Virus record (IMG/VR): IMGVR_UViG_3300021139_001840
Coordinates: 1-64,000 of that record
Length of the DNA: 64,000 bases
Source: a virus
Strand: one strand, 5' to 3'
The position numbers and the translations under genes were made by a program. Below the pieces are notes generated by a model. It was given only the letters and a program-made list of their open reading frames with translations. It did not search any database and was not told the origin of the DNA. The stretch's first letter is position 1; every line of letters begins with the position of its first letter. Positions 7,042 through 60,274 of the stretch are shown here, one piece after another.

Positions 7042-7070
7042 TTGACTTTAAATTCAATTGGTCATATAAT
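7042..7070 (+). promoter_or_regulatory. Sigma70-type promoter TTGACT-17-TATAAT, predicted leaderless start at 7077
   Basis: Near-consensus promoter: -35 at 7042-7047, -10 at 7065-7070, 17-base spacer. The expected +1, seven bases after the -10, is the A of the ATG at 7077. Confidence 0.85.
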
Positions 7071-7076
7071 ATGGAT

Positions 7077-7520
7077 ATGCTCAAAAAACTATTTCAGCGT
7101 TTAGGACGCCATAGAATTATATTAGATAGAGAAAGCAACGATCCTTATTTGGAACGATATTATTTGTTCCTAAAAGATCGTAAACGTTTTCCATTTAACA
7201 TATTTCTACACAAATTCCTCAAAGGTGATCGAGACCATTTACACGACCACCCTTGGTCTTACTGCACTTTAATACTTAAAGGTGGATACTGGGAGTGGAT
7301 ACCTGGAAATAATTGTGAAATCCGCAAATGGCGTGGTCCGGGACATTTTCGTATGTGTAGAGCCAATTCCTATCATCGCATAGAATTAGAACCTGGCGTA
7401 ACTGCTTGGACATTGTTCATGCCCGGGCAACAACAACGTGACTGGGGATTTTTGGTTGATGATGTATGGATTCAAAACGAAGAATATTTTAAACAACGCA
7501 AGGAGAATGTAAGTGCCTAA
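7077..7520 (+). CDS. Cupin-like phage protein
   Basis: 147 residues from the ATG at 7077 (MLKKLFQRLG). An in-frame ATG at 7071 would place the start before the predicted +1. The core has HLHDHPWSY, LKGGYWEW, WRGPGHFRMCRAN and HRIELEPGVTAWTLF, a cupin-type arrangement with likely metal-binding histidines in HLHDH and a later HR. The protein ends next to a GTG-started gene that overlaps by 8 bases. The fold call is by motif; the substrate is unknown. No ribosome-binding site is present, consistent with a leaderless transcript. Confidence 0.65.
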   Translation: MLKKLFQRLGRHRIILDRESNDPYLERYYLFLKDRKRFPFNIFLHKFLKGDRDHLHDHPWSYCTLILKGGYWEWIPGNNCEIRKWRGPGHFRMCRANSYHRIELEPGVTAWTLFMPGQQQRDWGFLVDDVWIQNEEYFKQRKENVSA

Positions 7521-8034
7521 CTATTGTGATAACATTGCCACTATTTCTGGACCAGCAGAAGTAATTGGCCAAATTAAAACTATACTGGAAGATCCCAAGG
7601 GTGAGTTGCTAAACTACATGGTTCCAGAACCCAAAGACAATGAAAGCTGGTATGAATGGCGTGTGGAAAATTGGGGCACTAAATGGGATATTTCGGATGT
7701 TTATTTGAACGATGAAGACACAGAAAATAATTCTATAGAATTTGGATTTAGTTCTGCTTGGTCTCCACCAACACAAGCATTTGAAACTTGGGCACGAGGT
7801 CAAGAAGGAGTAACTTTTACCTTAAAATACTTTGAACCTGGTGTGGGATTTTTAGGTGAAGCTACATATGATGGTGAATATTTTGATGATAATTATATAG
7901 ATAGCCAGTCAGATGCTACAGCATATAAAGATTTTGCTCGAGACGAATGGGGCTGGGAAGATGAGGAAGAACCAGAACCATTTACTGAATGGTATAAACA
8001 GGGTGTTGAAGAAAAAGGATTGACAGATGATTGA
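7513..8034 (+). CDS. Api92/DUF1281-like ferredoxin-fold protein
   Basis: 173 residues starting at GTG 7513, preceded by AAGGAG, and overlapping the upstream gene by 8 bases. The N-terminus MPNYCDNIATISG is the hallmark of the Api92-like/YubB (DUF1281) family found in phages and plasmids. FGFSSAWSPPTQAFETWA is also typical. The acidic C-terminus ends EPFTEWYKQGVEEKG, a tail repeated almost exactly in the unrelated protein at 10108. Function unknown. Confidence 0.7.
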   Translation: MPNYCDNIATISGPAEVIGQIKTILEDPKGELLNYMVPEPKDNESWYEWRVENWGTKWDISDVYLNDEDTENNSIEFGFSSAWSPPTQAFETWARGQEGVTFTLKYFEPGVGFLGEATYDGEYFDDNYIDSQSDATAYKDFARDEWGWEDEEEPEPFTEWYKQGVEEKGLTDD

Positions 8035-8365
8035 AATTTTAACTGGAATAGTGTTGGGCATAGTTATTGCCATAGTTGTTATCTACTTGTACATTCGTAG
8101 TTTGATTAGGCAAGTTATGATGGACATTGACGGATTAATCGAAGTAGCAAAAAATCAAATAATGCCCGTAACAGTTGAGCGTGAAAACGGTATAATTTAT
8201 TGTTATAATAAAAATGACAATCAATTTATTTGCCAAGGCGCCAATTTGTCCGAAATCAAAGCGGCATTTAAAGCTCGATTTCCCGATTGTACTGCTTATT
8301 TGGATGGTGGTAATCTCGAATTAGTGGAAGAATTGCGTAGTGAATTGAGAAAAGATTTAGTTTGA
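8027..8365 (+). CDS. Membrane-anchored conserved phage protein
   Basis: 112 residues overlapping the previous stop by 8 bases. Residues about 3-25 form one hydrophobic transmembrane segment (ILTGIVLGIVIAIVVIYLYI). The rest is soluble, with NGIIYCYNKNDNQFICQG and IKAAFKARFPDCTAYL. Single-pass inner-membrane protein with a cytoplasmic or periplasmic domain; function unknown. Its stop overlaps the -35 of the next promoter. Confidence 0.6.
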   Translation: MIEILTGIVLGIVIAIVVIYLYIRSLIRQVMMDIDGLIEVAKNQIMPVTVERENGIIYCYNKNDNQFICQGANLSEIKAAFKARFPDCTAYLDGGNLELVEELRSELRKDLV

Positions 8366-8390
8366 CAAGCAAATCAACAAGTAGTATAAT
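8362..8390 (+). promoter_or_regulatory. Consensus sigma70 promoter TTGACA-17-TATAAT, leaderless
   Basis: Perfect -35 (8362-8367) and perfect -10 (8385-8390) with a 17-base spacer. The ATG of the next gene is at 8397, exactly the expected +1. Confidence 0.9.
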
Positions 8391-8396
8391 AATAAT

Positions 8397-9293
8397 ATGA
8401 AAATAGCCATTGCTTCCGACATACACCTTGAATTTGGTTCAATTATGTTACACAACGACAAACAAGCCGATGTGTTAATTCTTGCGGGTGATATTTGTAC
8501 AGTTAAAACTTTTAAAAAGAAACCCAAAGAACGGGTGGGACTTATTGATTTTTTTAGTAACTGTTCCGCTATGTTTAAAGATGTTATATACATTTGTGGT
8601 AATCACGAACACTATGATTATGACATTGCTGAAACTTATAAAACACTTAAAAAAGAATTAGCACAATTTCCTAATATTCACATTTTAGAAAAAGAAACTG
8701 TAGATATTGGCAACATTACTTTTGTTTGTGGCACACTTTGGACTGATATGAATAAAAATGATTCATTGACTTTATGGCATTGTGGTCGAGCAATGAATGA
8801 TTTTCAGTTGATTAAAAATAGCTGTCGTATGACACATCATACCAATACAGTTTATGTTAAGAATCCTGATGGTTCGGGCATGAATTTAAAAGATGCCGAA
8901 GGTAACTTAGTTGTAGAACGAGTTGACCATTATGAAAAAGCATCTCGTTGGTCGCCAGAAGATTCAGTCGAAGACCACAAAAAAATGATTGACTACATTG
9001 ATATTGTTACCAAAGATAAAACAAAACAATATGTGGTAGTTGGTCATCATGCGCCATCGACTTTAAGTATAGCCGAATGTTATAAAGGTGATAAGTTAAT
9101 GAACGGAGCTTTCCATTCTGACCTCAGCGAATTCATCATTGATCGCCCGCAAATTAAACTTTGGGTACACGGACACATGCACAATAATAGCAATTATTGG
9201 ATTGGCGAAACTCATGTAGTTTGTAATCCCAGAGGATATGTTGGTTACGAAAGTTCTGCCACTTGGTTTGAATTACAATATTTGGAAATATAA
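8397..9293 (+). CDS. Calcineurin-like metallophosphoesterase
   Basis: 298 residues. Metal-binding motifs occur in family order: SDIH (residues 8-11), LAGDIC (about 30-35), CGNHEHYDY (about 64-72), VVGHHAPS and WVHGHMHNN near the C-terminus. These are the five blocks of the calcineurin-like phosphoesterase fold (two-metal phosphohydrolase, probably cytoplasmic). The substrate cannot be told. It has no ribosome-binding site and starts exactly at the predicted transcription start of a consensus promoter. It differs clearly from the PlcP-like enzyme at 14601. Confidence 0.85.
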   Translation: MKIAIASDIHLEFGSIMLHNDKQADVLILAGDICTVKTFKKKPKERVGLIDFFSNCSAMFKDVIYICGNHEHYDYDIAETYKTLKKELAQFPNIHILEKETVDIGNITFVCGTLWTDMNKNDSLTLWHCGRAMNDFQLIKNSCRMTHHTNTVYVKNPDGSGMNLKDAEGNLVVERVDHYEKASRWSPEDSVEDHKKMIDYIDIVTKDKTKQYVVVGHHAPSTLSIAECYKGDKLMNGAFHSDLSEFIIDRPQIKLWVHGHMHNNSNYWIGETHVVCNPRGYVGYESSATWFELQYLEI

Positions 9294-9547
9294 TGAGTAA
9301 ATCTAAACACAAACCTTATCAATGGATTGACGGAGAAACTGCAGATCGTATTACTAGTCTTAACCTAAAGGACTATCGAGCATATCTCAAAAAAGATCTT
9401 AAGGATTGGAAAAAGAATCCAAAAACTGAATCTAACCCCAATGGCTATTGGTTACATCCAGAAGATGTTGCTAGCCATATTCGTACTATTGATGCATTAG
9501 ATTTAATTATTAGCCACTTTATAGAAACATCAGACGAAATCAAATAA
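9293..9547 (+). CDS. Hypothetical phage protein
   Basis: 84 residues beginning on the last base of the preceding stop (TAATG). Charged, lysine- and aspartate-rich, with LNLKDYRAYLKKDLKDW and a C-terminal helix LDLIISHFI. No recognised domain. The overlap suggests translational coupling to the phosphoesterase gene. Confidence 0.6.
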   Translation: MSKSKHKPYQWIDGETADRITSLNLKDYRAYLKKDLKDWKKNPKTESNPNGYWLHPEDVASHIRTIDALDLIISHFIETSDEIK

Positions 9548-9559
9548 AAGGAATTAAAA

Positions 9560-9931
9560 ATGAGTGATTATTCACCAGACCGTTGGGTAGTTATAAAAAT
9601 TACTACACCAACTGAACGTCTTTATAAAGTGTTTGCGTCATGGTCAGGTGGCTATGGCGGTTCAGACTCTTGGAAGATAAATTCAGGTATTACACAAGCT
9701 AGGCTTGTTAAGGATCGTTGGGAGTTTGATGGGTACAGCGGCTCTGTTTACAGTTGTCACACTCAGGCCTATGGAACCAACGGTTATGGTGGCAATGTTT
9801 TACAAAATTTTATTGACTGTGCTCCAAGCGAAGGAGCTACAATTGAAATCATGCCAGGCGAGACCAATTGGGCCAGTTTAGACTATGATGCGCTACAGCA
9901 ATTTATTGCTAACGGAGTTAAAAATGATTAA
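9560..9931 (+). CDS. Hypothetical phage protein
   Basis: 123 residues with an AAAAGGAA ribosome-binding site before ATG 9560. The N-terminus DRWVVIKITTPTERLYKVFASWSGGYGGSDSWKI and a GYSGSVYSCHTQAYG segment look like a small beta-rich soluble fold. Aromatic and glycine rich. Function unknown; within the early cluster. Confidence 0.65.
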   Translation: MSDYSPDRWVVIKITTPTERLYKVFASWSGGYGGSDSWKINSGITQARLVKDRWEFDGYSGSVYSCHTQAYGTNGYGGNVLQNFIDCAPSEGATIEIMPGETNWASLDYDALQQFIANGVKND

Positions 9932-10106
9932 CTGGTTGCGTTATTCCGGGGTCAGTGTTATAATAACATTAAATCCTTTATGGTGGCGATTAGCACCCTG
10001 GGCGCAAAAAGACTATAATGAATGGGCTGGTCCCAATGAATGGACAGGTTCATGCGGCTGGTTGTTTTTAACAATTCGTGTTTGGATTGACGACGGGAGT
10101 TGGTAG
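9924..10106 (+). CDS. Small tryptophan-rich phage protein
   Basis: 60 residues from ATG 9924, overlapping the upstream gene by 8 bases. An unusually Trp-rich sequence (NPLWWRL, NEWAGPNEW, CGWLFLTIRVWIDDGSW) with a hydrophobic first third. Similar short proteins are familiar from T4-like phages of aquatic bacteria. May be membrane associated. Function unknown. Confidence 0.65.
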   Translation: MINWLRYSGVSVIITLNPLWWRLAPWAQKDYNEWAGPNEWTGSCGWLFLTIRVWIDDGSW

Positions 10107-10107
10107 T

Positions 10108-10506
10108 ATGGGCATGTTTGATTGGCTAAAATATCAAGGTGAGGAATATCAAACAAAGGATACTCCAGCCCAATCATTAGATAATTATAAAATTGAACAG
10201 GATCAAACATCCGGTCATTGGCATTTATGGCATGAAGATTATGATGCTGAGTGGAAAGAAGATGCTGACAGATTTGGTGGCGGATACATAAAACATTTTA
10301 ATCAACGTTGGGTATGTTGCGAGGAGTTTGACGGTGAAATTCGTTTTTATCGAGAAGACAAAAACAATGGCGGGTACTACAACAACAGATGGATTGTATA
10401 CAAAACATTGTTTATGAATGGACAGATGTTGAAGATTAAAGAAGTTTTTGATGAACCACTTACAAAGTGGTACAAACAAGGTCTAGAAGATAAGGGAATA
10501 AAATGA
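10108..10506 (+). CDS. Hypothetical phage protein with shared WYKQG tail
   Basis: 132 residues. ATG 10108 is preceded by GGGAGTTGGTAGT, which decides the start over upstream codons. It begins MGMFDWLKYQGEEYQTKDTP, a pattern seen in other phage proteins, and continues with GHWHLWHEDYDAEW. The C-terminus EPLTKWYKQGLEDKG nearly repeats the tail of the Api92-like protein at 7513. Function unknown. Confidence 0.65.
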   Translation: MGMFDWLKYQGEEYQTKDTPAQSLDNYKIEQDQTSGHWHLWHEDYDAEWKEDADRFGGGYIKHFNQRWVCCEEFDGEIRFYREDKNNGGYYNNRWIVYKTLFMNGQMLKIKEVFDEPLTKWYKQGLEDKGIK

Positions 10507-11333
10507 GAGAATATTGGAGCTGTAGTAAATTGGCGGATAAGATTCGTGGTACTATGAAACCTGGTAGTTTAGAGTTGGGTAAATGGGAAGAGTGGGAGGA
10601 GCTAGCAAAAACTAACCACCCCGTTCGTTATTGGATAGTTGAGGAAGGCATGGACGCAGTACAAAAGTTTATTAATTGGCCCGCTGATCAAATTAATAAT
10701 GTTCGATATAGGCTTAATAATCGATTTGTTGCCGGAACCCACCAATTGACTTCGAGGCTTAAACGAGGTGAGTATCACGAATTGGATGAGCGCATACTAC
10801 ATTGTATCTTTGATGAGTTGGTTAATTTTGTTGAAATTGAAAAAGCATGGATGCAAGTTTGTTGGGGAGATGAAGCTACCCGGAAAAAATATCAACTACC
10901 ATTTTGGCGTAAGCAATGGTGGACTCGTTGGTTTATGACTTGGCGCAACCCGCAAGCTGGAATTGATCATTTACTTTGGGAAATGAGTTTGACTAATAAT
11001 GAATATGTAAATGAAACTGATCCAGAATTTGGTAAGCCAACTTATCAATCACTTAGAGCACAAGAAATATTGGACTTGTATCAATGGTGGACTGTAACTC
11101 GTCCAGCTCGTCCTGATCCATATGAGGCCAGCGGGTGGACAGCGTACTGCGAAGCCAGTCGCGAAGCCAATGGCGGCAAGTTGGGATGGAGCGGCAGTAA
11201 GGATAATGCTACACTTAAGAAAATGTCTAAAGAAGCGCACAAAAAATTAAACAAAATAGAAGTGGCGTATGATAAAGAAGATGAAGAAATGTTGATTAAA
11301 TTGATTAAGATTCGTAAAAATCTTTGGACTTAA
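10503..11333 (+). CDS. Conserved hypothetical phage protein
   Basis: 276 residues, overlapping the upstream stop by 4 bases (ATGA). Mostly helical and Trp/Arg-rich, with NNRFVAGTHQLTSRLKRGEYHELDERILHCIFDELVNFVEIEKAW, a block I associate with conserved phage proteins of unknown function. The C-terminus is a charged helix. No catalytic motif is seen. Confidence 0.65.
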   Translation: MREYWSCSKLADKIRGTMKPGSLELGKWEEWEELAKTNHPVRYWIVEEGMDAVQKFINWPADQINNVRYRLNNRFVAGTHQLTSRLKRGEYHELDERILHCIFDELVNFVEIEKAWMQVCWGDEATRKKYQLPFWRKQWWTRWFMTWRNPQAGIDHLLWEMSLTNNEYVNETDPEFGKPTYQSLRAQEILDLYQWWTVTRPARPDPYEASGWTAYCEASREANGGKLGWSGSKDNATLKKMSKEAHKKLNKIEVAYDKEDEEMLIKLIKIRKNLWT

Positions 11334-11873
11334 ATGGGATTAGTACTACCACCTAATGACCCCGCCAACCCCAAGCGTAATAAATCTAACGTAGCTAATG
11401 GACGCGACAGCAAAGATATGGAAGTGGGAGATAATTTAGTTGCATTTATTAATCGTAATGTTAGTCCTTATCCTGTAGATGTAGGTGGTCCTAGTTTTGA
11501 TCTTATTCCCATCGAAAAACAAAAGGATCAGATGGTCAACGTGGCACGTATGCATGCCCGACAGGAATATAGTCGCATTATGGAGTTAGTAGCAGTATTA
11601 CAGCGTCAAGCGGATGAAGTGCGCAAACGAGTAGATATTACAGACTTAGTTCATGCCGCAAAGTATGCGTTTCAGATTTATCATGGACAATGTTATTGGT
11701 TAGTAAGGGACCATAAACGAGGTGGAACTATTTTAGTACAAACAGGGCCGGATGAATGGACAACTACTCCCCCGGAATATTATGAGTATATTTGCCGTGT
11801 CAAGTGGTTAGGTGATTATACATGGATCGAAGTGGATAACGAGGGTAATGATGTCTGGACAAACCGTTTTTGA
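11334..11873 (+). CDS. DUF2452-like phage protein
   Basis: 179 residues starting directly after the preceding stop. A helical middle part (RMHARQEYSRIMELVAVLQRQADEV) precedes a C-terminal block FQIYHGQCYWLVRDHKRGG-ILVQTGPDEW, which resembles the DUF2452 family. That assignment is from memory of the pattern. Function unknown. Confidence 0.55.
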   Translation: MGLVLPPNDPANPKRNKSNVANGRDSKDMEVGDNLVAFINRNVSPYPVDVGGPSFDLIPIEKQKDQMVNVARMHARQEYSRIMELVAVLQRQADEVRKRVDITDLVHAAKYAFQIYHGQCYWLVRDHKRGGTILVQTGPDEWTTTPPEYYEYICRVKWLGDYTWIEVDNEGNDVWTNRF

Positions 11874-12111
11874 GCAAATAGCAACACATATGGCGGAACG
11901 TAACGATACTACATTAAAAGTATGGTCAGGTAAGATTGACATAGAAGAATACCTACAATGGAAGAAAGACTTTATTTGGGAAGCGTTACATGGACAACGC
12001 TATGGGCAAAGTTTTTGTAATCGTTTTGGCATACACGACAATCATTTGTTTTATAATACAGGTGGTATAGAATGGGCAGACGAATATATTAAAAAGACTT
12101 ATTTTGCTTGA
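11851..12111 (+). CDS. Hypothetical phage protein
   Basis: 86 residues. Two adjacent ATGs at 11848 and 11851 follow GAGGGTA; the second has better spacing. It overlaps the previous gene by 23 bases. The block QRYGQSFCNRFGIHDNHLFY is likely the conserved core. Function unknown. Confidence 0.6.
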   Translation: MSGQTVFEQIATHMAERNDTTLKVWSGKIDIEEYLQWKKDFIWEALHGQRYGQSFCNRFGIHDNHLFYNTGGIEWADEYIKKTYFA

Positions 12112-12322
12112 TCCAAAATTTACTCACTCTGTTAGAATTACCATGGTACATAACGATGATATTTTGGCGTGGGATGAAATATGCTACAAGACTATAGAAT
12201 TATTTGGACTGCCAGGCGACAGATATATAACTGATATCAGCTACAAATGGATGGATTGGATATTTCGAGATGCTAAAGATGCGCTGATATTCAAATTAAA
12301 GTTTAGTGAGGTCACCGTATGA
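12104..12322 (+). CDS. Hypothetical phage protein, TTG start
   Basis: 72 residues if begun at TTG 12104, which keeps an amphipathic strand KFTHSVRITMVHNDD before the conserved-looking ELFGLPGDRY and KDALIFKLKF. An ATG at 12143 would remove that strand. It overlaps the upstream gene by 8 bases, as others here do. Function unknown. Confidence 0.5.
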   Translation: MLDPKFTHSVRITMVHNDDILAWDEICYKTIELFGLPGDRYITDISYKWMDWIFRDAKDALIFKLKFSEVTV

Positions 12323-12552
12323 TTCTAGAACAAGGCGATTTTATACAACCAAAACAAGGATTTAATCATGCCAAAATGATTACCAAATCGTTTGGCGTAA
12401 TTGAAGAAATATTAGATTGGTGTAAACGTGAATTATCAAATGAATGGCGCTGGCAACTTAAAGAAGTTAGTACACATACTCGTAATGGTGAATACATATT
12501 TTATTTTGATTCCGAACGAGACTACTTGACTTTTTTAATGAAATGGGCATAG
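12319..12552 (+). CDS. Hypothetical phage protein
   Basis: 77 residues joined to the preceding stop by an ATGA overlap. Contains LDWCKRELSNEWRWQLKEVST and YIFYFDSERDYLTFLMKW, a strand-helix pattern similar to the upstream protein's C-terminus, so the two may be a functional pair. Function unknown. Confidence 0.65.
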   Translation: MILEQGDFIQPKQGFNHAKMITKSFGVIEEILDWCKRELSNEWRWQLKEVSTHTRNGEYIFYFDSERDYLTFLMKWA

Positions 12553-12553
12553 T

Positions 12554-12582
12554 TTGACTTTTAATCATTTTTCAATTATAAT
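12554..12582 (+). promoter_or_regulatory. Sigma70-type promoter TTGACT-17-TATAAT
   Basis: -35 at 12554-12559 and -10 at 12577-12582. It precedes the gene at 12615 with a leader of about 26 bases carrying AAGGAG. Confidence 0.85.
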
Positions 12583-12614
12583 ATAAACTGCTATAGTCAA
12601 TTAAGGAGTAAAAA

Positions 12615-12968
12615 ATGAAATCATATAGATTCTTGGGAGAAGAAGCCGAAGTATTAGGCAATAGACTTGACCATGCTCGTAAGATATTATTCGAAACAAC
12701 AACACCATGGGCTAAAAATTACTGGGGCCAAACAGTGGAACGTTTACTATTTCAATGGCGCCAACTACCTATTCTTCATGATGGAGATGCTCAAATAACT
12801 ATCATACCCAAATGGACAATCAGTTATGAATTTTATGAAAGTCAACAAGAAGGCAACTTGTACGGAGTAAGTGATCGTTTATACGATAAAGTGTTTAATA
12901 GCAAAAATGCCGACTTAACTGCCAGTTGGGAAGCTCATAGAGCACAAAGATTGGCAAGGGCTCAGTAA
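12615..12968 (+). CDS. Conserved hypothetical phage protein
   Basis: 117 residues with an excellent AAGGAG site. Contains ETTTPWAKNYWGQTVERLLFQWRQLPILHDGDAQ and a C-terminal DLTASWEAHRAQRLARA. The pattern looks like a conserved T4-like phage family of unknown function. It opens a new transcription unit of overlapping small genes. Confidence 0.65.
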   Translation: MKSYRFLGEEAEVLGNRLDHARKILFETTTPWAKNYWGQTVERLLFQWRQLPILHDGDAQITIIPKWTISYEFYESQQEGNLYGVSDRLYDKVFNSKNADLTASWEAHRAQRLARAQ

Positions 12969-13620: not shown

Positions 13621-13645
13621 ATTACTTTACTTTAAGGAGATGTCA

Positions 13646-17278: not shown

Positions 17279-17307
17279 TTGATTCTTTATTACCAAACTG
17301 TTATAAT
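17279..17307 (+). promoter_or_regulatory. Sigma70-type promoter TTGATT-17-TATAAT, leaderless
   Basis: -35 at 17279-17284 and -10 at 17302-17307. ATG 17314 is seven bases after the -10, the predicted +1. Confidence 0.85.
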
Positions 17308-17313
17308 CACAGT

Positions 17314-17544
17314 ATGAAAAATAAAGAATTAGCACATTACGTCAAGTGGGTAGCAACCACAATTACCCTTTCGGGCGCAGTATTAGCTTCATTAAACATT
17401 TATCCCTATAGTGCCGTCACGCTAAACATTGGAGCGGGGTTATTCTTAATCTGGGCTATTTTGGTTAAAGATCGTGCTATGATCACAGTAAATCTTGGGT
17501 TATTACTAATATATTCAACGGGATTAGCTATTAAATCGTTGTAA
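17314..17544 (+). CDS. Small inner-membrane protein
   Basis: 76 residues from ATG 17314 (MKNKELAHYVKWVATT). About three hydrophobic segments (TTITLSGAVLASLNI, TLNIGAGLFLIWAILV, NLGLLLIYSTGLAI) indicate a polytopic membrane protein. The pattern is familiar from conserved small membrane proteins of T4-like phages. Starts exactly at the predicted transcription start, with no ribosome-binding site. Confidence 0.7.
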   Translation: MKNKELAHYVKWVATTITLSGAVLASLNIYPYSAVTLNIGAGLFLIWAILVKDRAMITVNLGLLLIYSTGLAIKSL

Positions 17545-17564: not shown

Positions 17565-17593
17565 TTGACAAGTTATTCATTTGGAACTATACT
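17565..17593 (+). promoter_or_regulatory. Sigma70-type promoter TTGACA-17-TATACT
   Basis: -35 at 17565-17570 and -10 at 17588-17593. The leader is about 23 bases with TTAGGAG before ATG 17623. Confidence 0.85.
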
Positions 17594-17622
17594 GCATGTA
17601 TAGTAATTAATTAGGAGCAAAT

Positions 17623-17835
17623 ATGTTTGAAACTTGTGTAGATCAGTTAGTTAAAGTAACACTAACCAATGAACCCATTAAAACTGAATGGTTTAATGGT
17701 ACACTATTTGTTAGCACTATTAACGAAGCTCAAGCTCGTAGTGTGTTTCATAGATTGAGCCAAACTTTAGGATTGGGCAAGGTTCAAATAAGTCCAATTG
17801 GTGATACAGGCGAATATGCCTACGATTTTGTTTAA
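17623..17835 (+). CDS. Small hypothetical protein
   Basis: 70 residues with a TTAGGAG site. Reads as alternating strands and one helix (QARSVFHRLSQTLGLGKVQISPIGDTGEYAYDFV). First gene of a unit that continues with the LPD29-like protein. Function unknown. Confidence 0.65.
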   Translation: MFETCVDQLVKVTLTNEPIKTEWFNGTLFVSTINEAQARSVFHRLSQTLGLGKVQISPIGDTGEYAYDFV

Positions 17836-21583: not shown

Positions 21584-22267
21584 ATGAAGAATATCTTATT
21601 ATCGTTATTAATAGCATTAGGCAGTACCGCAGTAGTAGCACAAGAATACCAAGTAGCAGATTTAAAAGCAGAAGTAACATTTAAAGATCACGTGATTAAC
21701 CAAGCCACAAGTTTTGTGGAATCAACAGTTAATATGATCGCAACACCATTCTTATCCGACAAGGATGTAGAATGTTTAGCTCGTAATATATTTTATGAAG
21801 CTGGCGGCGAACCTATAGAAGGCAAAGCAGCAGTTGGAATAGTTACACTTAACCGCACTCAAGATGACAGATATCCACAAACCGTATGCGGTGTAGTTAA
21901 ACAACGTACTGTATTATCAGTACCACATCGAGTAAAAGAAGTTAAAACTATTAAAACTGATTGGCTAAGCCCTCCAAAACAAGTTGTTGAAGTTAAAACA
22001 ACTTGGGTACAAAAAACCATTTATCAATTTAGTTGGGTTGGACAACGCAATATCAAAATTCGTGAAGACGATCCACGCTGGATAGAATCCCGAGCAGTAG
22101 CCGAAGAGTTAGCTCGTGGTGGATATGAAACGTGGCAAGAAAAATATGAAAATGCAAAAAATTTCCACGCGGTTTATGTACATCCGGGCTGGAAATTAAA
22201 GCGTATTGGCCGGGTAGGTAACCATATCTTCTACGAAGGCACAACTCCTATTCAGCGGGGCGGTTGA
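21584..22267 (+). CDS. SleB/Hydrolase_2-type cell-wall hydrolase, secreted
   Basis: 227 residues from ATG 21584, chosen by AAGGAG. A Sec signal peptide is present (MKNILLSLLIALGSTAVVAQ). The mature part has CLARNIFYEAGGEPIEGKAAVGIVTLNR with the likely catalytic Glu, YPQTVCGVVKQ, YQFSW, NAKNFHAVYVHPGW and GNHIFYEG, the order of the Hydrolase_2 family (spore-cortex lytic SleB type). A Lys/Val-rich insert of about 40 residues separates VVKQ from YQFSW. Predicted periplasmic peptidoglycan hydrolase, distinct from the GH19 endolysin at 40298. Confidence 0.85.
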   Translation: MKNILLSLLIALGSTAVVAQEYQVADLKAEVTFKDHVINQATSFVESTVNMIATPFLSDKDVECLARNIFYEAGGEPIEGKAAVGIVTLNRTQDDRYPQTVCGVVKQRTVLSVPHRVKEVKTIKTDWLSPPKQVVEVKTTWVQKTIYQFSWVGQRNIKIREDDPRWIESRAVAEELARGGYETWQEKYENAKNFHAVYVHPGWKLKRIGRVGNHIFYEGTTPIQRGG

Positions 22268-22292
22268 CAATAAATCCCAAGTTTGTTATAAT
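22264..22292 (+). promoter_or_regulatory. Consensus sigma70 promoter TTGACA-17-TATAAT, leaderless
   Basis: -35 at 22264-22269 and -10 at 22287-22292, overlapping the end of the hydrolase gene. The predicted +1 is the A of ATG 22299. Confidence 0.88.
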
Positions 22293-22298: not shown

Positions 22299-22325
22299 AT
22301 GAATAGCAAATTTGGATTGATTTGA
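22299..22325 (+). CDS. Possible 8-codon leader peptide (MNSKFGLI)
   Basis: ATG 22299 lies exactly seven bases after a consensus -10. The frame ends in TGA whose last base starts the next gene (TGATG). This geometry would allow leaderless translation of the minicistron and reinitiation at 22325. Too short to prove by sequence alone. Confidence 0.4.
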   Translation: MNSKFGLI

Positions 22326-22720
22326 TGACGATGCATTTGGAAGGGCCGTGGTTAAGCACTACAGGCAAACAAAAGACCAAACGTAAGTGGACAAGTTCTG
22401 AAGCTAAGAAGTTAGCTGAAAAACGACAAGCTGAGTGGGATCGCAAGTTAGTTGAGTTTGATAAACTTGCTCCCAAATTCAGCACTGGGCCTTACAATGC
22501 TCCCCGAAAAACTATGGCAGATTTCATGCCCAAAACTCCCCCGGGTCGTGAAACTCCTCGAGTTCAATCACAGGACACAGGATGGGTGGCTTGTGTAAAA
22601 GTTAAGGATAACGAATATACTGGTGATGCTGTAGTCGGAATAGCGCAAATGGCAAAATCTAATGCAGTCCCTGTATTTGACTCTGACCATATTGTAGAGA
22701 TCGCTAGGATGCGGCGATAA
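22325..22720 (+). CDS. Conserved phage protein (MTMHLEGPWLSTTGK family)
   Basis: 131 residues. The N-terminus TMHLEGPWLSTTGKQKTKRKWTSSEAKKLAE and the C-terminus YTGDAVVGIAQMAKSNAVPVFDSDHIVEIARMRR match a protein widespread in large phages, whose start is MTMxLEGPWL. This supports ATG 22325. The middle is basic and helical. Function unknown. It is read from a leaderless promoter through an 8-codon upstream frame. Confidence 0.75.
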   Translation: MTMHLEGPWLSTTGKQKTKRKWTSSEAKKLAEKRQAEWDRKLVEFDKLAPKFSTGPYNAPRKTMADFMPKTPPGRETPRVQSQDTGWVACVKVKDNEYTGDAVVGIAQMAKSNAVPVFDSDHIVEIARMRR

Positions 22721-32931: not shown

Positions 32932-32960
32932 TTGATTTACTGACAAAAATCCTATACAAT
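32932..32960 (+). promoter_or_regulatory. Sigma70-type promoter TTGATT-17-TACAAT, leaderless
   Basis: -35 at 32932-32937 and -10 at 32955-32960. ATG 32967 is the predicted +1. Confidence 0.78.
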
Positions 32961-32966
32961 TAGGAT

Positions 32967-33200
32967 ATGGACTACCCCGAACACCCACTAATTCCTAGCC
33001 TTGATGCTCTCACTACCGAAGAGCTCAGTGAAAAAATCACTGAATTAAATAAAAAACTTGCAATTGCTTATCGTATTGGCAATAATGATTTATGTAATCA
33101 ATTGCGTATGTCATTGAACACTTATCAAACCAAATACACACAAAAAATGCGTACCGATCAAACCGGTACCGATTTTAATGGAATCATAGATATTTCATGA
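32967..33200 (+). CDS. Small conserved phage protein
   Basis: 77 residues. LTTEELSEKITELNKKLAIAYRIGNNDLCNQLRMSLNTYQTKY is a helical hairpin pattern seen in T4-like phage genomes. Starts exactly at the predicted transcription start. Its stop overlaps the next gene by four bases (ATGA). Function unknown. Confidence 0.7.
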   Translation: MDYPEHPLIPSLDALTTEELSEKITELNKKLAIAYRIGNNDLCNQLRMSLNTYQTKYTQKMRTDQTGTDFNGIIDIS

Positions 33201-35138: not shown

Positions 35139-35167
35139 TTGTAAAATAGGGTATTAGACAATATAAT
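35139..35167 (+). promoter_or_regulatory. Sigma70-type promoter TTGTAA-17-TATAAT, near-leaderless
   Basis: -35 at 35139-35144, -10 at 35162-35167. ATG 35175 is eight bases after the -10, within one base of the predicted +1. Confidence 0.75.
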
Positions 35168-35174
35168 ATACTTT

Positions 35175-35441
35175 ATGAAACAAGAAAAATGTACAGCTTG
35201 TGGGCAATTTCCAAAAATTAATTGTAATTGGAAACAAGGTCGATGCCCACATTTGCCACCATTAATTAAAGGAACTGTTATGAATCATAGAAATATTAGC
35301 CTCATTAAAAGTGTATTTAGAATTGTGGCTGGTCTAGCACTTGCTGGCGGTGGGTGGCTAGAAATGAATCCATATATTCAAGCGGCTGGGTACATACTAG
35401 TGTTTGCTGAAATTTTAGGAATTGCCGAGGAATTGGTTTAA
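35175..35441 (+). CDS. Zn-ribbon-like plus membrane protein, possible nested start
   Basis: 88 residues. The N-terminal part, KCTACGQFPKINCNWKQGRCPHLPP, has a CxxC...C...C/H cluster. The rest, MNHRNISLIKSVFRIVAGLALAGGGWLEMNPYIQAAGYILVFAEILGI, is a two-segment membrane protein. An internal in-frame ATG at 35280 has its own AAAGGA at ideal spacing, so a 53-residue short form is likely made too. The long form fits the leaderless promoter. Confidence 0.65.
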   Translation: MKQEKCTACGQFPKINCNWKQGRCPHLPPLIKGTVMNHRNISLIKSVFRIVAGLALAGGGWLEMNPYIQAAGYILVFAEILGIAEELV

Positions 35442-36814: not shown

Positions 36815-36843
36815 TTGACTTTTAATTCATTTTACATTATAAT
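36815..36843 (+). promoter_or_regulatory. Sigma70-type promoter TTGACT-17-TATAAT, leaderless
   Basis: -35 at 36815-36820 and -10 at 36838-36843. ATG 36850 is exactly the predicted +1. Confidence 0.88.
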
Positions 36844-36849
36844 AGTAAT

Positions 36850-37461
36850 ATGAAATCAAAATATAGAAACAGAAAAAAATTAATCCTAACTGATGCTGAC
36901 GGCTGTTTGCTGGATTGGGAGTGGGCTTTTAATGTATGGATGCAAGAACATGGTTTTGAAGAAGTTGCTGGGTCCAAATTAAACTATGACATGGCTATAC
37001 GCTATGGTATTCCTAGAGAACAAGTAGTAAAGCTGATACGCATTTTTAATGAATCTGCGGCTATTGGATTTCTTCCTGCCCAGCGCGATGCTATGTACTA
37101 TGTCAAACGGTTAGTCGAAGAACACGGATATAAATTCCATTGTATTACTTCGTTAAGTCTAGATCCTAATGCGCAAAGACTTCGTGAGATGAATCTAAGT
37201 AAGTTGTTCGGTGAACATACATTTGAACGTATCGTATGTTTAGATACCGGAGCGCACAAAGATGACGCACTAGAAGAATATGAAGGCACTGGCCTCGTTT
37301 GGATTGAGGACAAGCCAGAGAATGCTGAGGCCGGATATAAGTACGGATTAAATTCCCTACTTATAGAACATGGTCATAATTTTGAATATGCCCATCCGCA
37401 TATTAAATTAGTTAAAAATTGGAAACATATTTATAGTATAATTACAGGAGAACAGGGTTAA
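36850..37461 (+). CDS. HAD-superfamily phosphatase-like protein
   Basis: 203 residues. HAD motif I is LTDADGCLLDWEWAF (nucleophile and acid in DADG); motif II is the Ser/Thr in CITSLSLDPN; the motif III/IV region is GLVWIEDKPENA. A cytoplasmic phosphohydrolase acting on a nucleotide or sugar phosphate is likely. No ribosome-binding site; starts at the predicted transcription start. Its 3' end overlaps the minus-strand GIY-YIG gene by 20 bases. Confidence 0.75.
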   Translation: MKSKYRNRKKLILTDADGCLLDWEWAFNVWMQEHGFEEVAGSKLNYDMAIRYGIPREQVVKLIRIFNESAAIGFLPAQRDAMYYVKRLVEEHGYKFHCITSLSLDPNAQRLREMNLSKLFGEHTFERIVCLDTGAHKDDALEEYEGTGLVWIEDKPENAEAGYKYGLNSLLIEHGHNFEYAHPHIKLVKNWKHIYSIITGEQG

Positions 37462-54534: not shown

Positions 54535-54560
54535 GCTGATTGCTCCTTTAAAGCATTAGG

Positions 54561-54590: not shown

Positions 54591-54595
54591 ACTTC

Positions 54596-54618: not shown

Positions 54619-54643
54619 ATAGATAATATATAAAGGATTTATA

Positions 54644-55084
54644 ATGCTTGCTGAATTATTAAAAGTGCTACTTGCTTCTACATTTACTTATTACCTTAAA
54701 GCACACTTTTTTCATTGGTCAGTAGAAGGCAAAGACTTCTATCAATATCACAAATTCCTACAAAAAATCTACGAAGATGCTTACGGGGCTGTAGATACTA
54801 TTGCGGAATTTATTCGCACACTAGACGAATATGCCCCGGGAAGCCTAACTCGTTATCAAGAACTATCACGTATTCAAGATCAAACTAAAGTGCCAAGAGC
54901 ACAACTAATGATAGAAGAGTTATTGCATGACTCACATATTATGATTGAACTTCTCAATGAATGTTTTGCTGCTGCCACAGCAGAAAATAAACAAGACATC
55001 GCAAATTTTATTGCTGAAAGATTAACTGCTACTAATAAGTATATCTGGATGCTATCAAGTTTTTTAAAAGAATCTAGAGAGTGA
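54644..55084 (+). CDS. Dps-like ferritin-fold protein
   Basis: 146 residues. TYYLKAHFFHWSVEGKDFYQYHKFLQKIYEDAYGAVDTIAEFIRTLDEYAPGS matches the Dps ferroxidase region (HxxHW; DxxxE in VDTIAEFIR), and the four-helix length fits. Dps proteins store iron, detoxify peroxide and may coat DNA. AAAGGA upstream and a late promoter suggest late, abundant synthesis, perhaps packaging with the DNA. No basic N-terminal tail is present. Confidence 0.82.
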   Translation: MLAELLKVLLASTFTYYLKAHFFHWSVEGKDFYQYHKFLQKIYEDAYGAVDTIAEFIRTLDEYAPGSLTRYQELSRIQDQTKVPRAQLMIEELLHDSHIMIELLNECFAAATAENKQDIANFIAERLTATNKYIWMLSSFLKESRE

Positions 55085-55085
55085 T

Positions 55086-56315
55086 ATGGATAATGAATTT
55101 TACAGCATAGTAGAAAAATTAGCTATTCTTGAAGGACGTATTGCTCCCAAGGATAAAGAAACATTGTCTGCGGCAAAACAAAAGAAGCCAGCACTTTTTA
55201 ATAATTTAAAAAAAGCTGATGAAAATGTTATACCTGATGTTGGCGGCGTTCCTGTTGCTGAAGCTAATATGGAAGAAGATGTAGTATCCAAAGTAAAAGC
55301 ATCACTAGCTGATTATTTAAAATCTGCCGAAGAAGAATTAAAACAAGATTCAGATTTAATCAAAAAGAAAAAACAAGATTTAGATCTAAAGAAAAAAGAA
55401 TTAAAGGATTTAGACTTACAACAAAAAGCTCATCAAGAAGTTGACGAAGCTGATGAAGACGATGAAGACGATGAAGAAGGTGATGACGATTTATTCTATG
55501 TTGTTTTACATGACCGCGATGATGACTCAACATTTGTTGGCGAAATTTATAAGCAAGATGGCCGTTGGCGCGAAGGCAATGTCAGTGGAAATCCTCCATA
55601 TAATTGGGGTGGATCACACACTTATATGAGTTATTTGACACCTCAAGATATCTGGCAACATATTCAAAATGATTTCCGTCGCGGGTTTGATATTGCTGGC
55701 CCATTTAGCGACCAGCAAAAAGCATTAGACTACGCAGAATATGAATTTGGAACTGAAGAATTAGACGAAGACCACAGAAAACTTGAAGTAGGCGACCGCG
55801 TTATGGTTATGGGACCAAATCATTATCAAGGTGAATTTGCTAAGGTTGAAGAATTTAGTCCGTCAGGTAAATTTGTTGTAGTAAAATTTGACAATGGCGA
55901 TGAAGCAAGTATGCATTTATCAGATGTTGAATTTCACAATGATCAAGAAGATGTCGAAGATTGGGAAGAAGAATTGGATGAAAACCCAACAGAAGCTCCT
56001 CCGCAATCAGCTTCAGGTGGTGGAGGGAATCCCACATACGCAGAAAGTACTACAGCGCCAGTAAAAACAGTTCATGTACCAGTGGAATGTGGCGATACTG
56101 CTATTGGCGGAGCAGGTGGAGCAGGCGGTGGCACACTATTAGTTGAACTACATGGTGATGAACGTGATGGATTTTGTATTAAACGTGCTGGACGAGAATT
56201 ACCAACAAGATTTAAAACATTAGCAGAAGCTGAATTAGCATTAGAAATGTATGTAGCGCATCGTAAGACCAAACACGATGCTGAACAATCTACTGATTAT
56301 CTTGAAGAAAAATAA
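55086..56315 (+). CDS. Acidic coiled-coil late protein with KOW-like domain
   Basis: 409 residues. The start MDNEFYSIVEKLAILEGR contains IVE and ILE sites of prohead-protease type. Residues 70-115 form a Lys/Glu coiled coil. Residues 117-137 are an Asp/Glu run (EADEDDEDDEEGDDD). A KOW-like segment, VGDRVMVMGPNHYQGEFAKVEEFSPSGKFVVVKFDNGDEA, follows. The C-terminus has a Gly-rich loop. Possibly an internal head or scaffold protein. Function unknown. Confidence 0.68.
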   Translation: MDNEFYSIVEKLAILEGRIAPKDKETLSAAKQKKPALFNNLKKADENVIPDVGGVPVAEANMEEDVVSKVKASLADYLKSAEEELKQDSDLIKKKKQDLDLKKKELKDLDLQQKAHQEVDEADEDDEDDEEGDDDLFYVVLHDRDDDSTFVGEIYKQDGRWREGNVSGNPPYNWGGSHTYMSYLTPQDIWQHIQNDFRRGFDIAGPFSDQQKALDYAEYEFGTEELDEDHRKLEVGDRVMVMGPNHYQGEFAKVEEFSPSGKFVVVKFDNGDEASMHLSDVEFHNDQEDVEDWEEELDENPTEAPPQSASGGGGNPTYAESTTAPVKTVHVPVECGDTAIGGAGGAGGGTLLVELHGDERDGFCIKRAGRELPTRFKTLAEAELALEMYVAHRKTKHDAEQSTDYLEEK

Positions 56316-56317
56316 AC

Positions 56318-58231
56318 ATGAATATATTTGATTTGTTCGAAGGCGACTCTGCTCGCGATAAATGGAATAAAGAATCCGCCAAACGTGATGCGGCCGCTAA
56401 AAAGCGTGAAGAAGAAATGACAGCACGACATAATCGAGGCAAAGAAGATATGTCAGGCGCAATTGATCGTTTAGAAAAACATTTAAATACTCCTGTTAAA
56501 GAACATGATATGTCGGAAGGCTGGAGTGACGCGATTGTTAGTCAAAGAACCGGCCGACCACGCACACCCTACTCAGTGTATATCAAAGGTAAGAAGTGGC
56601 GAGATTTTGAAAACGAAGATCATGCAGAAGCTGTAGCAAATAAATTACGAGCCAAATTCAAAGCTGACGGTCGTGACGCCAGTGTTATTACTATTGCCCC
56701 TACTGACTATGATAAAGATATAGTAAAAAAAGAAGCAGCAGTAAACGACGTAAACTTTGGTCATACAGTAACTAAAGGTGCTTGGATTGTACACCAGGAT
56801 GGCAAGAAACCAATTAGATTTAAGACACACATCGGCGCTAAAAAATATGCTGAAAAAAACGGCGGCAAAGTTTACTCAAGTGAGTTCTACGCAGACAAGA
56901 TTCAATCACAGGTTGATGAGCATGGTGGTGGTGTAAACGCTATGAATAAATATATTTCATGGCGCAATAGTGCTAACAAAGAACGTGGAATCACAAAATA
57001 CCAACCTGTAGGCAAACCTGCCGAAAGTTTACGAGAGTTTGCCCTAGGTGATGAAGGTGAGGAAGATACTTTACTCAAGTTTGCTCGCTTATGGTGGAAT
57101 GGTGACGAAGCTACACAAAATAAAGTTGAAGAAGTATTAGCCAAGATGGGTTGGACTATTGGTGAAAATGAATCTGGCGATGAAAACGATGCTTGTTTTG
57201 TTGTTCGCAATGGTGACATGAACGGCGATAGTTATATTGCGTTTGGCAAAGAAGATTTAAATGAAGGTTCAATGTCCACTGCCGCACATCATCATGCTGG
57301 TCCAGAATTTCCAGGATATTGGAAAGGAACTGACTCTGCTAGTTTATCACGTAGACGTATGGTGGGTGATGATATAGAAGAAGGTATTGAAGGTAACATG
57401 ACCGTTAAGTCCTCACCACTATCAGAGCCATTACGTAAACGTAATTTTGTTGCTAAAAATTCTCCCATTACCGGTGCTGGAAAACACACCAATCAGTTAA
57501 AAAAAGCCATGGCAGCAGGCCGCAATGCCAAGCATAAAGCACAAACTATTCCATTCGATGAAAGTATGAATTTTATGGAGTGGGCAGTAAACAATGACTA
57601 TAATTTTGCAAAAAATCCCGCTGTTTACAAAGAAGCCAAAGAAGCATTTAAAAAAAAAATAAACGAAATATCTAAAGATAAAATTGAAAAGTACTACACT
57701 GATGTTATTAAAAAACAAGCTGACAACATTGGTATCCAGCCTAATATGTATAGCAAGCTAGAACCAAAACATCAACGTGGTATTGATAGAGCAAATAATC
57801 GTTTATACAAAAATAATGAAGAGCGCGGACCAATAGCGCCGCACGAAACATATTATGGCGCAATGGATGAAGCCAAAGGTTTAGGTACACAAGTTAAAAT
57901 CATCAAAGGCAGTGATGCGGGCAAAATTGGATGGATTAGAGAAATTAAACTTGGTTCTTTTAAAGGAGCTCCAAAAACTTATTATATTGATCTCGAAGAT
58001 GGTGGGCAAGCAAATAATTTACCTGGCACTGCATTACGCATAATTAAAAACAAAGTAGATGAAAGTTTACAGCCAGGCGAATACTATGTTTGGACCGTAT
58101 ACTTTGATAATGGCGGTAAACAAAATATTAAAGTAACCTCAGATAATTTTGATCCAACAGCATATTATGCCAATCAAAACAAAGCGGTAGTAAATGTAGA
58201 TTATAATTGGGAGAAACATAATGAAATTTAA
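56318..58231 (+). CDS. Large late protein with capsid-targeting-like leader
   Basis: 637 residues. It begins MNIFDLFEGD (LFE site), then a charged coiled coil (KESAKRDAAAKKREEEMTARHNRGKED). Several small domains follow, including TPYSVYIKGKKWRDFENEDHAEAVANKL and a KOW-like segment VKIIKGSDAGKIGWIREIKLGSFKGAPKTYYIDLEDGG. Many LxE/IxE sites separate them, so the polyprotein could be cut during head maturation. No enzyme motif recognised. Confidence 0.66.
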   Translation: MNIFDLFEGDSARDKWNKESAKRDAAAKKREEEMTARHNRGKEDMSGAIDRLEKHLNTPVKEHDMSEGWSDAIVSQRTGRPRTPYSVYIKGKKWRDFENEDHAEAVANKLRAKFKADGRDASVITIAPTDYDKDIVKKEAAVNDVNFGHTVTKGAWIVHQDGKKPIRFKTHIGAKKYAEKNGGKVYSSEFYADKIQSQVDEHGGGVNAMNKYISWRNSANKERGITKYQPVGKPAESLREFALGDEGEEDTLLKFARLWWNGDEATQNKVEEVLAKMGWTIGENESGDENDACFVVRNGDMNGDSYIAFGKEDLNEGSMSTAAHHHAGPEFPGYWKGTDSASLSRRRMVGDDIEEGIEGNMTVKSSPLSEPLRKRNFVAKNSPITGAGKHTNQLKKAMAAGRNAKHKAQTIPFDESMNFMEWAVNNDYNFAKNPAVYKEAKEAFKKKINEISKDKIEKYYTDVIKKQADNIGIQPNMYSKLEPKHQRGIDRANNRLYKNNEERGPIAPHETYYGAMDEAKGLGTQVKIIKGSDAGKIGWIREIKLGSFKGAPKTYYIDLEDGGQANNLPGTALRIIKNKVDESLQPGEYYVWTVYFDNGGKQNIKVTSDNFDPTAYYANQNKAVVNVDYNWEKHNEI

Positions 58232-58796
58232 AAATATTGTAGCAATGACGCTAGTAGTATTTGCAGGCGCAGTTTCAGCCGAGCCATTACACATTTGCAA
58301 AAACATTGACTATGCACTTTGTGCTGCTAGTCCAACAACACCAACAGGTAAAACTATGAAGGTTGATGGCAAAACATTCAAAGAAGGTATGGCAGTTTGT
58401 CCCATACTTCACGGCGATGCTGTAGCCAATTTGAGTTTAATGAATGGATCGTGTGATGTTCCTGGACCAGGTAAAATTTGGAGTTTGTTTGGAGTTCCGG
58501 CTCAAACAAACTATCCGCAACAACCAACATGGGCAGTAGCCCCAGCCGCATTTAGAAGTTTTACAATTGGCACAACATCAACAACCGGTATGAGCAATAT
58601 GTGGAGTTTTCCATGCGATATACAAGCACAAAAAGTCAATGGCGTAAAATTGGCATCTTGCTACGGTCCTATCATGGAAAGTCCTTGGACAAATGACCAT
58701 GTCAAACCAGGCCAAATTGGATTTACGCAAGCCGCCGAAGGTGTAACATATCCTGTTGGTGGTAATGCTCCTGCTAATATCGTAATTAAAAAGTAA
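58221..58796 (+). CDS. Secreted hypothetical protein
   Basis: 191 residues overlapping the upstream gene by 11 bases, with GGGAGAAA before ATG. Sec signal peptide MKFKNIVAMTLVVFAGAVSA cut before EPLHIC. The mature part has several cysteines (ICKN, ALCAAS, AVCPIL, GSCDV, FPCDI, ASCYG), suggesting disulfides in the periplasm. Contains PAAFRSFTIGTTSTTGMSNMWSFPCD. No family recognised. Unusual among phage genes for being exported. Confidence 0.72.
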   Translation: MKFKNIVAMTLVVFAGAVSAEPLHICKNIDYALCAASPTTPTGKTMKVDGKTFKEGMAVCPILHGDAVANLSLMNGSCDVPGPGKIWSLFGVPAQTNYPQQPTWAVAPAAFRSFTIGTTSTTGMSNMWSFPCDIQAQKVNGVKLASCYGPIMESPWTNDHVKPGQIGFTQAAEGVTYPVGGNAPANIVIKK

Positions 58797-58797
58797 T

Positions 58798-58875
58798 ATG
58801 AATCCAAACGAGTATCCGGTATACCCAGAAGATGATGGGTATGACACTCCAAAAAATCCATTTTCTCCAGTTTAG
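58798..58875 (+). CDS. 25-residue hypothetical protein
   Basis: MNPNEYPVYPEDDGYDTPKN then PFSPV, starting one base after the previous stop. Acidic, Pro/Tyr-rich, with no ribosome-binding site. The stop abuts the -35 of the next promoter. Low support. Confidence 0.35.
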   Translation: MNPNEYPVYPEDDGYDTPKNPFSPV

Positions 58876-58904
58876 TTGACTAGTCAAGATAAATATGCTA
58901 TCAT
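58876..58904 (+). promoter_or_regulatory. Sigma70-type promoter TTGACT-17-TATCAT, leaderless
   Basis: -35 at 58876-58881 and -10 at 58899-58904. ATG 58910 is six bases after the -10, within one base of the predicted +1. Confidence 0.78.
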
Positions 58905-58909
58905 AGCAT

Positions 58910-60274
58910 ATGACACTTAAATCTACTAAACGAATTGGTATACTGGTTGCCCGCACTAACTTTGTTTATCGCGGGGTAGGTGCTTATGCTAAAAGTATTA
59001 TTGATTGGGCATTAAGTTTAGGATACCACGTTGATGTCATTTCTGATGCTCCTGTAAGACGTGATGGTTTATTTGATCAATATGAATTACGGGTTCAGTG
59101 GATTAGTCCTCCTACTACCATAGATGATAATGTTTACAAAGAACTGGCTTCTTTTTCAAAACCATTTGATACCACACTGAGCATTAATTTTCGTAACGCA
59201 TTAGTTTACGCATTGCGTCATCATACTTACGATATGATAATTACAAATACTGGCGAAGCATTGGATGCTGTAACTGGTATTGGTGTACACAAATATTGCA
59301 CAGTACTACATCCTACGCATCATGAATCCGAAGCTGGAGTTAAAGTTAAACATGACATTTTTGCTCCTGGTGTAACCGATCGTTATCGCGCTTTATGTAA
59401 CTTACCCGATGTACTACTGGCTTGCCAAAGTGATTGGATACAAGAAAATGCTCAAACACAATATCCTGACAAAGTGACTGAATGTTTAGTTGTGCCTCCA
59501 TTAGTTCCAGAAAAAGAATTACTTGATTTTAGCACATTGCCAACAGAACGTTGGGGAGTAGGATTTGTTGGCCCTTGGGAACCACGTAAAAATCCCGAAG
59601 CATATATTGCCGCACTTAAAGCCTCGGGATTACCTGGCGTAGTACTGGTGCCATCAGAAACATCTGCTAAGAAATTTAAGGAACGTTTTAAACAAGAAGG
59701 TATTGAGTATAAAATTCACGTGGGTGTCACTGGCGCGGAAAAAACAAGAATTATACAAAGTTTGGCGGCTGCATATCATCCAGCAGTTAGTGAAACTTTT
59801 GGATTAGGAGCATTAGAAACTGCTCACAGTTGCCCTACTGTATTACTATCTAAACATGATTGGAGCTACGCACATAAAGACTATGCTGTTATAGTGGAAG
59901 AAAGTGAAGCCGCTGATGTACTTAAATCAGTATATGGAGCAGGAGTTATCAAAGAAGTACAAGACATATTAACAGCACGTCATAAAACTATTAGTGAGCA
60001 ATTAGTCAAATTGGCTACCCGAAAAAAAATCACAACCGTTCACAAAAATAACTTTCACACAGAATTGGGAACCGTGGGTTTAATAAATCATAAAGAATTT
60101 ACTGATACTCATAATTCTTTTTGTACAGATGAAATATATAAAATGTTACGACTACCGGCGGTAGAAGCTGTAGAAGTGTTACATAGTTATAACGAAACAT
60201 ATTATAGAAATCGAGGAAGTAACTTGTTGCCGGAGGAAAAATCAGATCCTAGCAGTTTGTTTACTTTCGAATAG
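58910..60274 (+). CDS. GT4-type glycosyltransferase
   Basis: 454 residues. GT-B fold: N-terminal GILVARTNFVYRGVGAYAKSIIDWALSLGYHVDVISD, linker VVPPLVPEKE, C-terminal VGFVGPWEPRKNPEAYIAAL, and PAVSETFGLGALETAHSCPTVLLS with the E-x-FG-x4-E signature. Likely modifies a host or phage surface glycan, or DNA bases as T4 glucosyltransferases do. It has an early-type leaderless promoter. A structured gap follows. Confidence 0.82.
   Translation: MTLKSTKRIGILVARTNFVYRGVGAYAKSIIDWALSLGYHVDVISDAPVRRDGLFDQYELRVQWISPPTTIDDNVYKELASFSKPFDTTLSINFRNALVYALRHHTYDMIITNTGEALDAVTGIGVHKYCTVLHPTHHESEAGVKVKHDIFAPGVTDRYRALCNLPDVLLACQSDWIQENAQTQYPDKVTECLVVPPLVPEKELLDFSTLPTERWGVGFVGPWEPRKNPEAYIAALKASGLPGVVLVPSETSAKKFKERFKQEGIEYKIHVGVTGAEKTRIIQSLAAAYHPAVSETFGLGALETAHSCPTVLLSKHDWSYAHKDYAVIVEESEAADVLKSVYGAGVIKEVQDILTARHKTISEQLVKLATRKKITTVHKNNFHTELGTVGLINHKEFTDTHNSFCTDEIYKMLRLPAVEAVEVLHSYNETYYRNRGSNLLPEEKSDPSSLFTFE

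Follow-up and report, generated by a model that had tools for sequence, protein, structure and literature searches.

Analysis of a 64,000-base stretch of DNA from a large freshwater phage (the window; bases 1-64,000 of the 96,791-base IMG/VR virus contig IMGVR_UViG_3300021139_001840, labelled G000) and of its relatives makes it very probable that these T4-like jumbo phages possess a conserved class of leaderless mRNAs, with predicted 5' ends at the A of an AUG codon in position +1 and, in a minority, a short leader open reading frame (ORF) opened by that AUG. We define the gap as the number of bases from the last base of the -10 hexamer to the A of the ATG. The -10 box of a sigma70 promoter occupies positions -12 to -7, so that a gap of 6 places the A at +1. 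Six sites in the window have this register (7077, 8397, 17314, 22299, 32967 and 36850, each coordinate being the predicted +1), and two others have a gap of 5 (58910) or 7 (35175).

The DNA polymerase of the contig is T4-like, and its closest counterparts in cultured phages, at 46-50% identity, are those of the jumbo phages Phosso (Sinorhizobium) and Atu_ph07 (Agrobacterium); metagenomic relatives of the contig reach 364 kb, and a search of GTDB genomes with the DNA polymerase for a host gave no match. Promoters were defined in advance as TTGACA/TATAAT with at most two mismatches in all and a spacer of 16-18 bases on either strand, and ATGs opening at least 40 codons were counted at every gap, with Markov-shuffled sequence as the control. 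The genomes compared were the rest of the contig, G002 (364 kb), G003 (347 kb), G001 (138 kb) and G004 (51 kb); G001 was excluded from separate counts because it is near-identical to part of G002. Gene-opening ATGs at gap 6 number four in the window versus 0.10 in shuffled sequence (Poisson P about 2e-5), five versus 0.15 in the whole 96.8-kb contig (where 62874, inside the DNA polymerase gene, and 73295, which opens only 39 codons, were set aside), 15 versus 0.45 in G002 (P about 3e-13) and eight versus 0.40 in G003 (P about 2e-6). Gaps 8-17 are almost empty, and a second hump at about 18-31 consists mostly of sites with a Shine-Dalgarno (SD) sequence; an SD-like motif is found in 1 of 36 leaderless candidates versus 53 of 77 leadered ones. 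A sequence-only reading of the window had judged the register unlikely to be chance and had named a genome-wide spacing count against shuffles as a possible refutation; the excess is present in the contig, G002 and G003. Chance as the whole explanation is hardly credible: the original cases were picked by eye, with weak promoters in three of the eight, but the scan was predefined, its result is reproduced in genomes outside the first reading, and the register is conserved among orthologs (below). Coincidence is thus refuted for the class, although the single weak sites 35175 and 58910 could be due to it.

The cultured Stenotrophomonas jumbo phage CM1 (OP883945.1) has a modest excess at gaps 6 and 7 (5-6 each versus about 1); its candidate ATGs include 192073, 122428 and 220852, and one CM1 ATG opens what we read as a GroES-like protein. 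Pseudomonas phage Paride (OR805295.1) has candidate promoters that begin at 119929, 171153 and 224041. No match to the strict gap-6 pattern with one mismatch was found in the cultured relatives Phosso, Atu_ph07, phiM12, 2.275.O or B23.

The register is kept in ortholog families, which were gathered from IMG/VR and collapsed to distinct upstream sequences. The HAD-like phosphatase at 36850 has 43 orthologs with a promoter at most 40 bases from the start: 34 at gap 6, three at gap 5, one at gap 7, one at gap 10 and four at gaps 28-31; the 38 with a gap of 5-7 all lack an SD. The RNase H-like family (contig position 83708) has 25 orthologs with a promoter, 21 of them at gap 6 and 4 at gap 5, and again none of these has an SD (0/25); the remaining orthologs have no promoter there. 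Among gap-6 members of the HAD-like and RNase H-like families, respectively, mean identity is 52% and 48% in the spacer and 57% and 53% in the gap bases, and the spacers fall into 9 and 11 clusters below 60% identity; the -35 box, -10 box and ATG are near-invariant, partly because the boxes were a selection criterion. In these families, the distance from predicted promoter to ATG is conserved while the surrounding sequence drifts. The promoters are of the sigma70 type, with -35 and -10 boxes about 17 bases apart that are kept while the spacers diverge. T4-type late promoters, which consist of an extended -10-like TATAAATA without a -35 box, were ruled out, as every site has a -35 box at 17 bases and a TATAAT-type -10.

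The sites in the window, with two leadered promoters for contrast, are as follows:

7042..7520, + strand: promoter TTGACT-17-TATAAT (-35 7042-7047, -10 7065-7070), gap 6, ATG 7077 of a 147-amino-acid gene
8362..9293, + strand: promoter TTGACA-17-TATAAT (-35 8362-8367, -10 8385-8390), gap 6, ATG 8397 of a metallophosphoesterase
17279..17544, + strand: promoter TTGATT-17-TATAAT (-35 17279-17284, -10 17302-17307), gap 6, ATG 17314 of a DUF6552 protein of 76 amino acids
22264..22720, + strand: promoter TTGACA-17-TATAAT (-35 22264-22269, -10 22287-22292), gap 6, ATG 22299 of an 8-codon leader ORF
32932..33200, + strand: promoter TTGATT-17-TACAAT (-35 32932-32937, -10 32955-32960), gap 6, ATG 32967 of a 77-amino-acid gene
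35139..35441, + strand: weak promoter TTGTAA-17-TATAAT (-35 35139-35144, -10 35162-35167), gap 7, ATG 35175 of an 88-amino-acid gene
36815..37461, + strand: promoter TTGACT-17-TATAAT (-35 36815-36820, -10 36838-36843), gap 6, ATG 36850 of a HAD-like phosphatase of 203 amino acids
58876..60274, + strand: promoter TTGACT-17-TATCAT (-35 58876-58881, -10 58899-58904), gap 5, ATG 58910 of a 454-amino-acid glycosyltransferase-like protein
12554..12968, + strand: contrast, same promoter type, followed by an ordinary leader with AAGGAG ahead of ATG 12615
17565..17835, + strand: contrast, promoter followed by an ordinary leader with TAGGAG ahead of ATG 17623

All eight promoters described in the sequence-only reading are present, with an ATG 6-8 bases past the -10 by its count (seven in six cases, equal to gap 6 here) and a 17-base spacer throughout. 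Its description of the boxes as near-consensus is too favourable for 32967 (TTGATT/TACAAT), 35175 (-35 TTGTAA) and 58910 (TATCAT); ATG 35175 is the weakest case of the eight. The reported lack of SD sequences is correct in general, but 32967 does carry AGGA, which lies only 2 bases from the ATG and is therefore too near to serve as an SD. Leadered promoters with SD-type sites do coexist with these, at 12554 (AAGGAG) and 17565 (TAGGAG). As for the ATGs being gene starts, the ORFs at 7077 and 17314 can be extended further in the 5' direction, but the ATGs originally named are favoured by orthologs and a Pfam domain: the gene at 7077 has an ortholog at G002:120449 (MLKKFFQRLGRYRI) that is also at gap 6, and the DUF6552 protein at 17314 matches PF20189 from residue 2 and has gap-6 counterparts at G002:124218 and G003:305072 (an IMG/VR search for DUF6552 returned no relatives). 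Counterparts of 32967, with a MEHPLI start, lie at G002:85108 (gap 5) and G004:2930 (gap 6). The metallophosphoesterase at 8397 (MKIAIASDIH) has its Pfam domain from residue 1; in the sequence labelled L137, both its ATG and the promoter are displaced upstream by 12 bases. The protein at 58910 has only weak Pfam matches, below cut-off, and its gene is absent beside the polymerase in relatives, leaving the upstream comparison without usable orthologs.

The gap-6 genes of the contig encode the metallophosphoesterase, HAD-like phosphatase, RNase H-like exonuclease, DUF6552 and small proteins, and the glycosyltransferase-like protein stands at gap 5; relatives add a UvdE endonuclease, a UvsW-like helicase, a gamma-glutamyl cyclotransferase and, by our own reading of a weak Radical SAM match, a QueE-like protein. 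In several of the proteins the Pfam domain starts within residues 1-3, which supports the ATG as the true start of these. At G002:130211 and G002:111563 (minus strand), a second ATG in the same frame, 8 codons after the gap-6 ATG, has an AAGGAG of its own, which makes two starts per gene possible. Elsewhere in the window, a minus-strand ORF of 1189 amino acids (2969-6538) has no Pfam match; long ORFs are few on that strand.

The bases around the ATG also bear on the predicted transcription start. Bacterial transcription usually initiates at a purine following a pyrimidine, and 26 of the 27 gap-6 ATGs in G000, G002 and G003 are directly preceded by one; pyrimidines number 5-14 of 27 at the five positions preceding -1. 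In these three genomes, 25 of 58 SD-leadered promoters carry AT at gap 6 and 12 carry it at gap 5, with 0-6 occurrences elsewhere. AT at this equal distance marks the likely start of transcription, and leaderless and leadered promoters appear to initiate at the same place, as a pair in G002 illustrates: TATAATACACAC-ATG (10253-10216) in the leaderless member and TATAATACACAC-ATAGACACTAAGGAGCTTGAG-ATG (9639-9581) in the leadered one. If transcription instead began slightly upstream, the resulting leaders of 1-8 bases could not hold an SD, and these mRNAs would be SD-independent rather than strictly leaderless; this would suit the gap of 5 or 7 at some sites, and the start is not fixable to the base from sequence, but we consider it very unlikely given the sharpness of the spike to one base, the pyrimidine at -1 and the AT of the leadered promoters.

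It is also very unlikely that these promoters simply prefer AT at the start of the transcript, with the third-base G arising by chance and the ATGs not being real starts. The preference for AT in leadered promoters is what this explanation predicts, as is the enrichment of ATA, ATC and ATT (ATH) at gap 6 (34 versus about 13 at other gaps). ATG, however, is enriched beyond AT (ATG:ATH of 36:34 at gap 6 versus 83:247 at other gaps, P 2e-5) and opens longer frames (at least 35 codons in 27/36 versus 14/34 for ATH, P 0.004); the two large ortholog families conserve the gap-6 ATG as the start of the protein; and most gap-6 genes have no SD-led start just downstream. Leaderless mRNAs of E. coli and Caulobacter are reported to prefer AUG as start codon (PMC9031893), and the same preference is evident in an IMG/VR pattern scan for TTGAC-N18-TATAAT-N0..20-ATGAAA (at least 120 stretches; the ATGAAA context was our choice): gap 6 accounts for 30 of the 130 matches listed and for 23 of the 70 that open 40 codons, whereas GTGAAA in the same scan gives no coding peak at gap 6 (1/28 among the matches listed). 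The sample comprises DUF6552-like, HAD-like and RNase H-like relatives of this phage together with other proteins. Smaller excesses among the matches listed (L376-L495, L530-L644), of ATG at gap 9 (8 coding) and GTG at gap 11 (6 coding), may stem from single phage groups.

Nine gap-6 ATGs in G000, G002 and G003 open only 2-24 codons. One is that at 22299, whose leader ORF (22299-22325, MNSKFGLI) ends in a stop that overlaps the next start as TGATG, the next gene being 22325-22720; this leader ORF was not found in the distant orthologs compared. Those at G003:16824 and G003:333730 overlap the next gene as ATGA, and for two of the nine no start of a 50-codon frame lies in the next 150 bases. The leader ORF at G002:110282 (minus strand; MLSSDAKHFLNSVSKL) recurs before the same small gene at G003:13265 (plus strand; MLSSKAQHFFKLR) and in L571 and L488, and is absent from the contig's own copy behind promoter 18571. 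Repeated AGGCAAC/AAAGGCAAC motifs occur in the leader of all four, and the window copy retains the motifs without the ORF. E. coli mRNAs with a 5'-terminal AUG and an SD-led gene downstream can be translated from that AUG, which can influence the next gene (Beck et al. 2016, PMC4965119); a short ORF at +1 before the main gene may be common to them and to 22299 and the eight other candidate sites. The present cases differ in belonging to phages, in that some leader ORFs overlap the next start (TGATG, ATGA) and in that one recurs across related phages.

The spike at gap 6, the ortholog register, the absence of SD sequences, the pyrimidine at -1, the AT mark and the restriction to ATG rather than GTG all argue for the class of leaderless transcripts that the sequence-only reading had suggested. 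In the proposed mechanism, the host's RNA polymerase, carrying the main sigma factor, would transcribe from TTGAC-N18-TATAAT promoters; the first transcribed base would be the A of the start codon, giving mRNAs with neither leader nor SD; and ribosomes would bind the 5'-terminal AUG, presumably through one of the routes known for leaderless mRNA (70S or IF2-assisted). At the other promoters of this type, transcription would start at the equivalent AT and run through an SD-bearing leader of about 15-26 bases, and in a minority the 5'-terminal AUG would open a short ORF before the main gene, as at 22299. From the host-type promoters we infer early timing of the leaderless class.

Several observations weigh against this interpretation. 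The same scan of T4 and of the E. coli jumbo phage 121Q finds the leadered hump and no gap-6 spike, so the spike is not shared by T4-like phages as a whole. Most orthologs of 7077 and 8397 are arranged otherwise: three distinct IMG/VR orthologs of 7077 are at gap 6, most others having an SD and no promoter, and six of 8397 are at gap 6-7, many relatives having an SD or no promoter. Read-through from upstream could also yield leadered copies of the same genes.

A more speculative possibility, which we regard as doubtful, is that leaderless mRNA forms a separate expression channel in T4-like jumbo phages, swappable with the SD-leadered mode by small changes near +1, which would let selected genes be translated when SD-dependent initiation in the infected cell is limited or altered, with the +1 leader ORFs as a regulatory offshoot. 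Phage genes that could account for the leaderless class were sought: a homolog of bS21 (L645) is encoded in G002 (147682-147837, minus strand) and was not found in G000 or G003; no IF3 domain was found in G000, G002 or G003. The idea that leaderless mRNAs escape a T4 RegB-like nuclease, which cuts at GGAG, was abandoned, as these records contain no RegB match.

Leaderless phage mRNA was known before: lambda cI is the standard leaderless mRNA (PMC4965119, PMC9031893), and it shares with the leaderless mRNAs predicted here a phage gene, a host sigma70-type promoter, an AUG at the 5' end and no need for an SD. It is, however, a single lysogeny gene of a temperate phage, whereas here many genes of T4-like jumbo phages are concerned and the register is conserved across diverged orthologs. 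The transcriptomes of Mycobacterium, Deinococcus and Caulobacter likewise combine a fixed distance from -10 to start, no SD and a mixture with leadered genes (PMC9031893, PMC3898074); unlike these, the present class is viral, has full -35 and -10 consensus boxes and, in our sample, uses ATG only. A paper on jumbo phage AR9 notes that transcripts of phages are often leaderless, but AR9 leaders measure 26-491 bases and AR9 has its own RNA polymerases (PMC5312081), unlike the host-type promoters and predicted lack of any leader here. No account of such a class in phages was found in the literature searched, most subscription journals being outside its coverage; what seems new is that leaderless mRNA would form a recurrent, conserved class in T4-like jumbo phages.

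TTGAC-N18-TATAAT-N6-ATG provides a simple rule to correct gene starts in phage annotation, and natural ortholog pairs with and without a leader could be used to measure the benefit of leaderlessness. Candidate sites in the cultured phages CM1 and Paride make the class testable. Most of what supported leaderless translation in phages came from isolated examples; the genome data presented here point to a recurrent class in giant phages that diverged orthologs retain.

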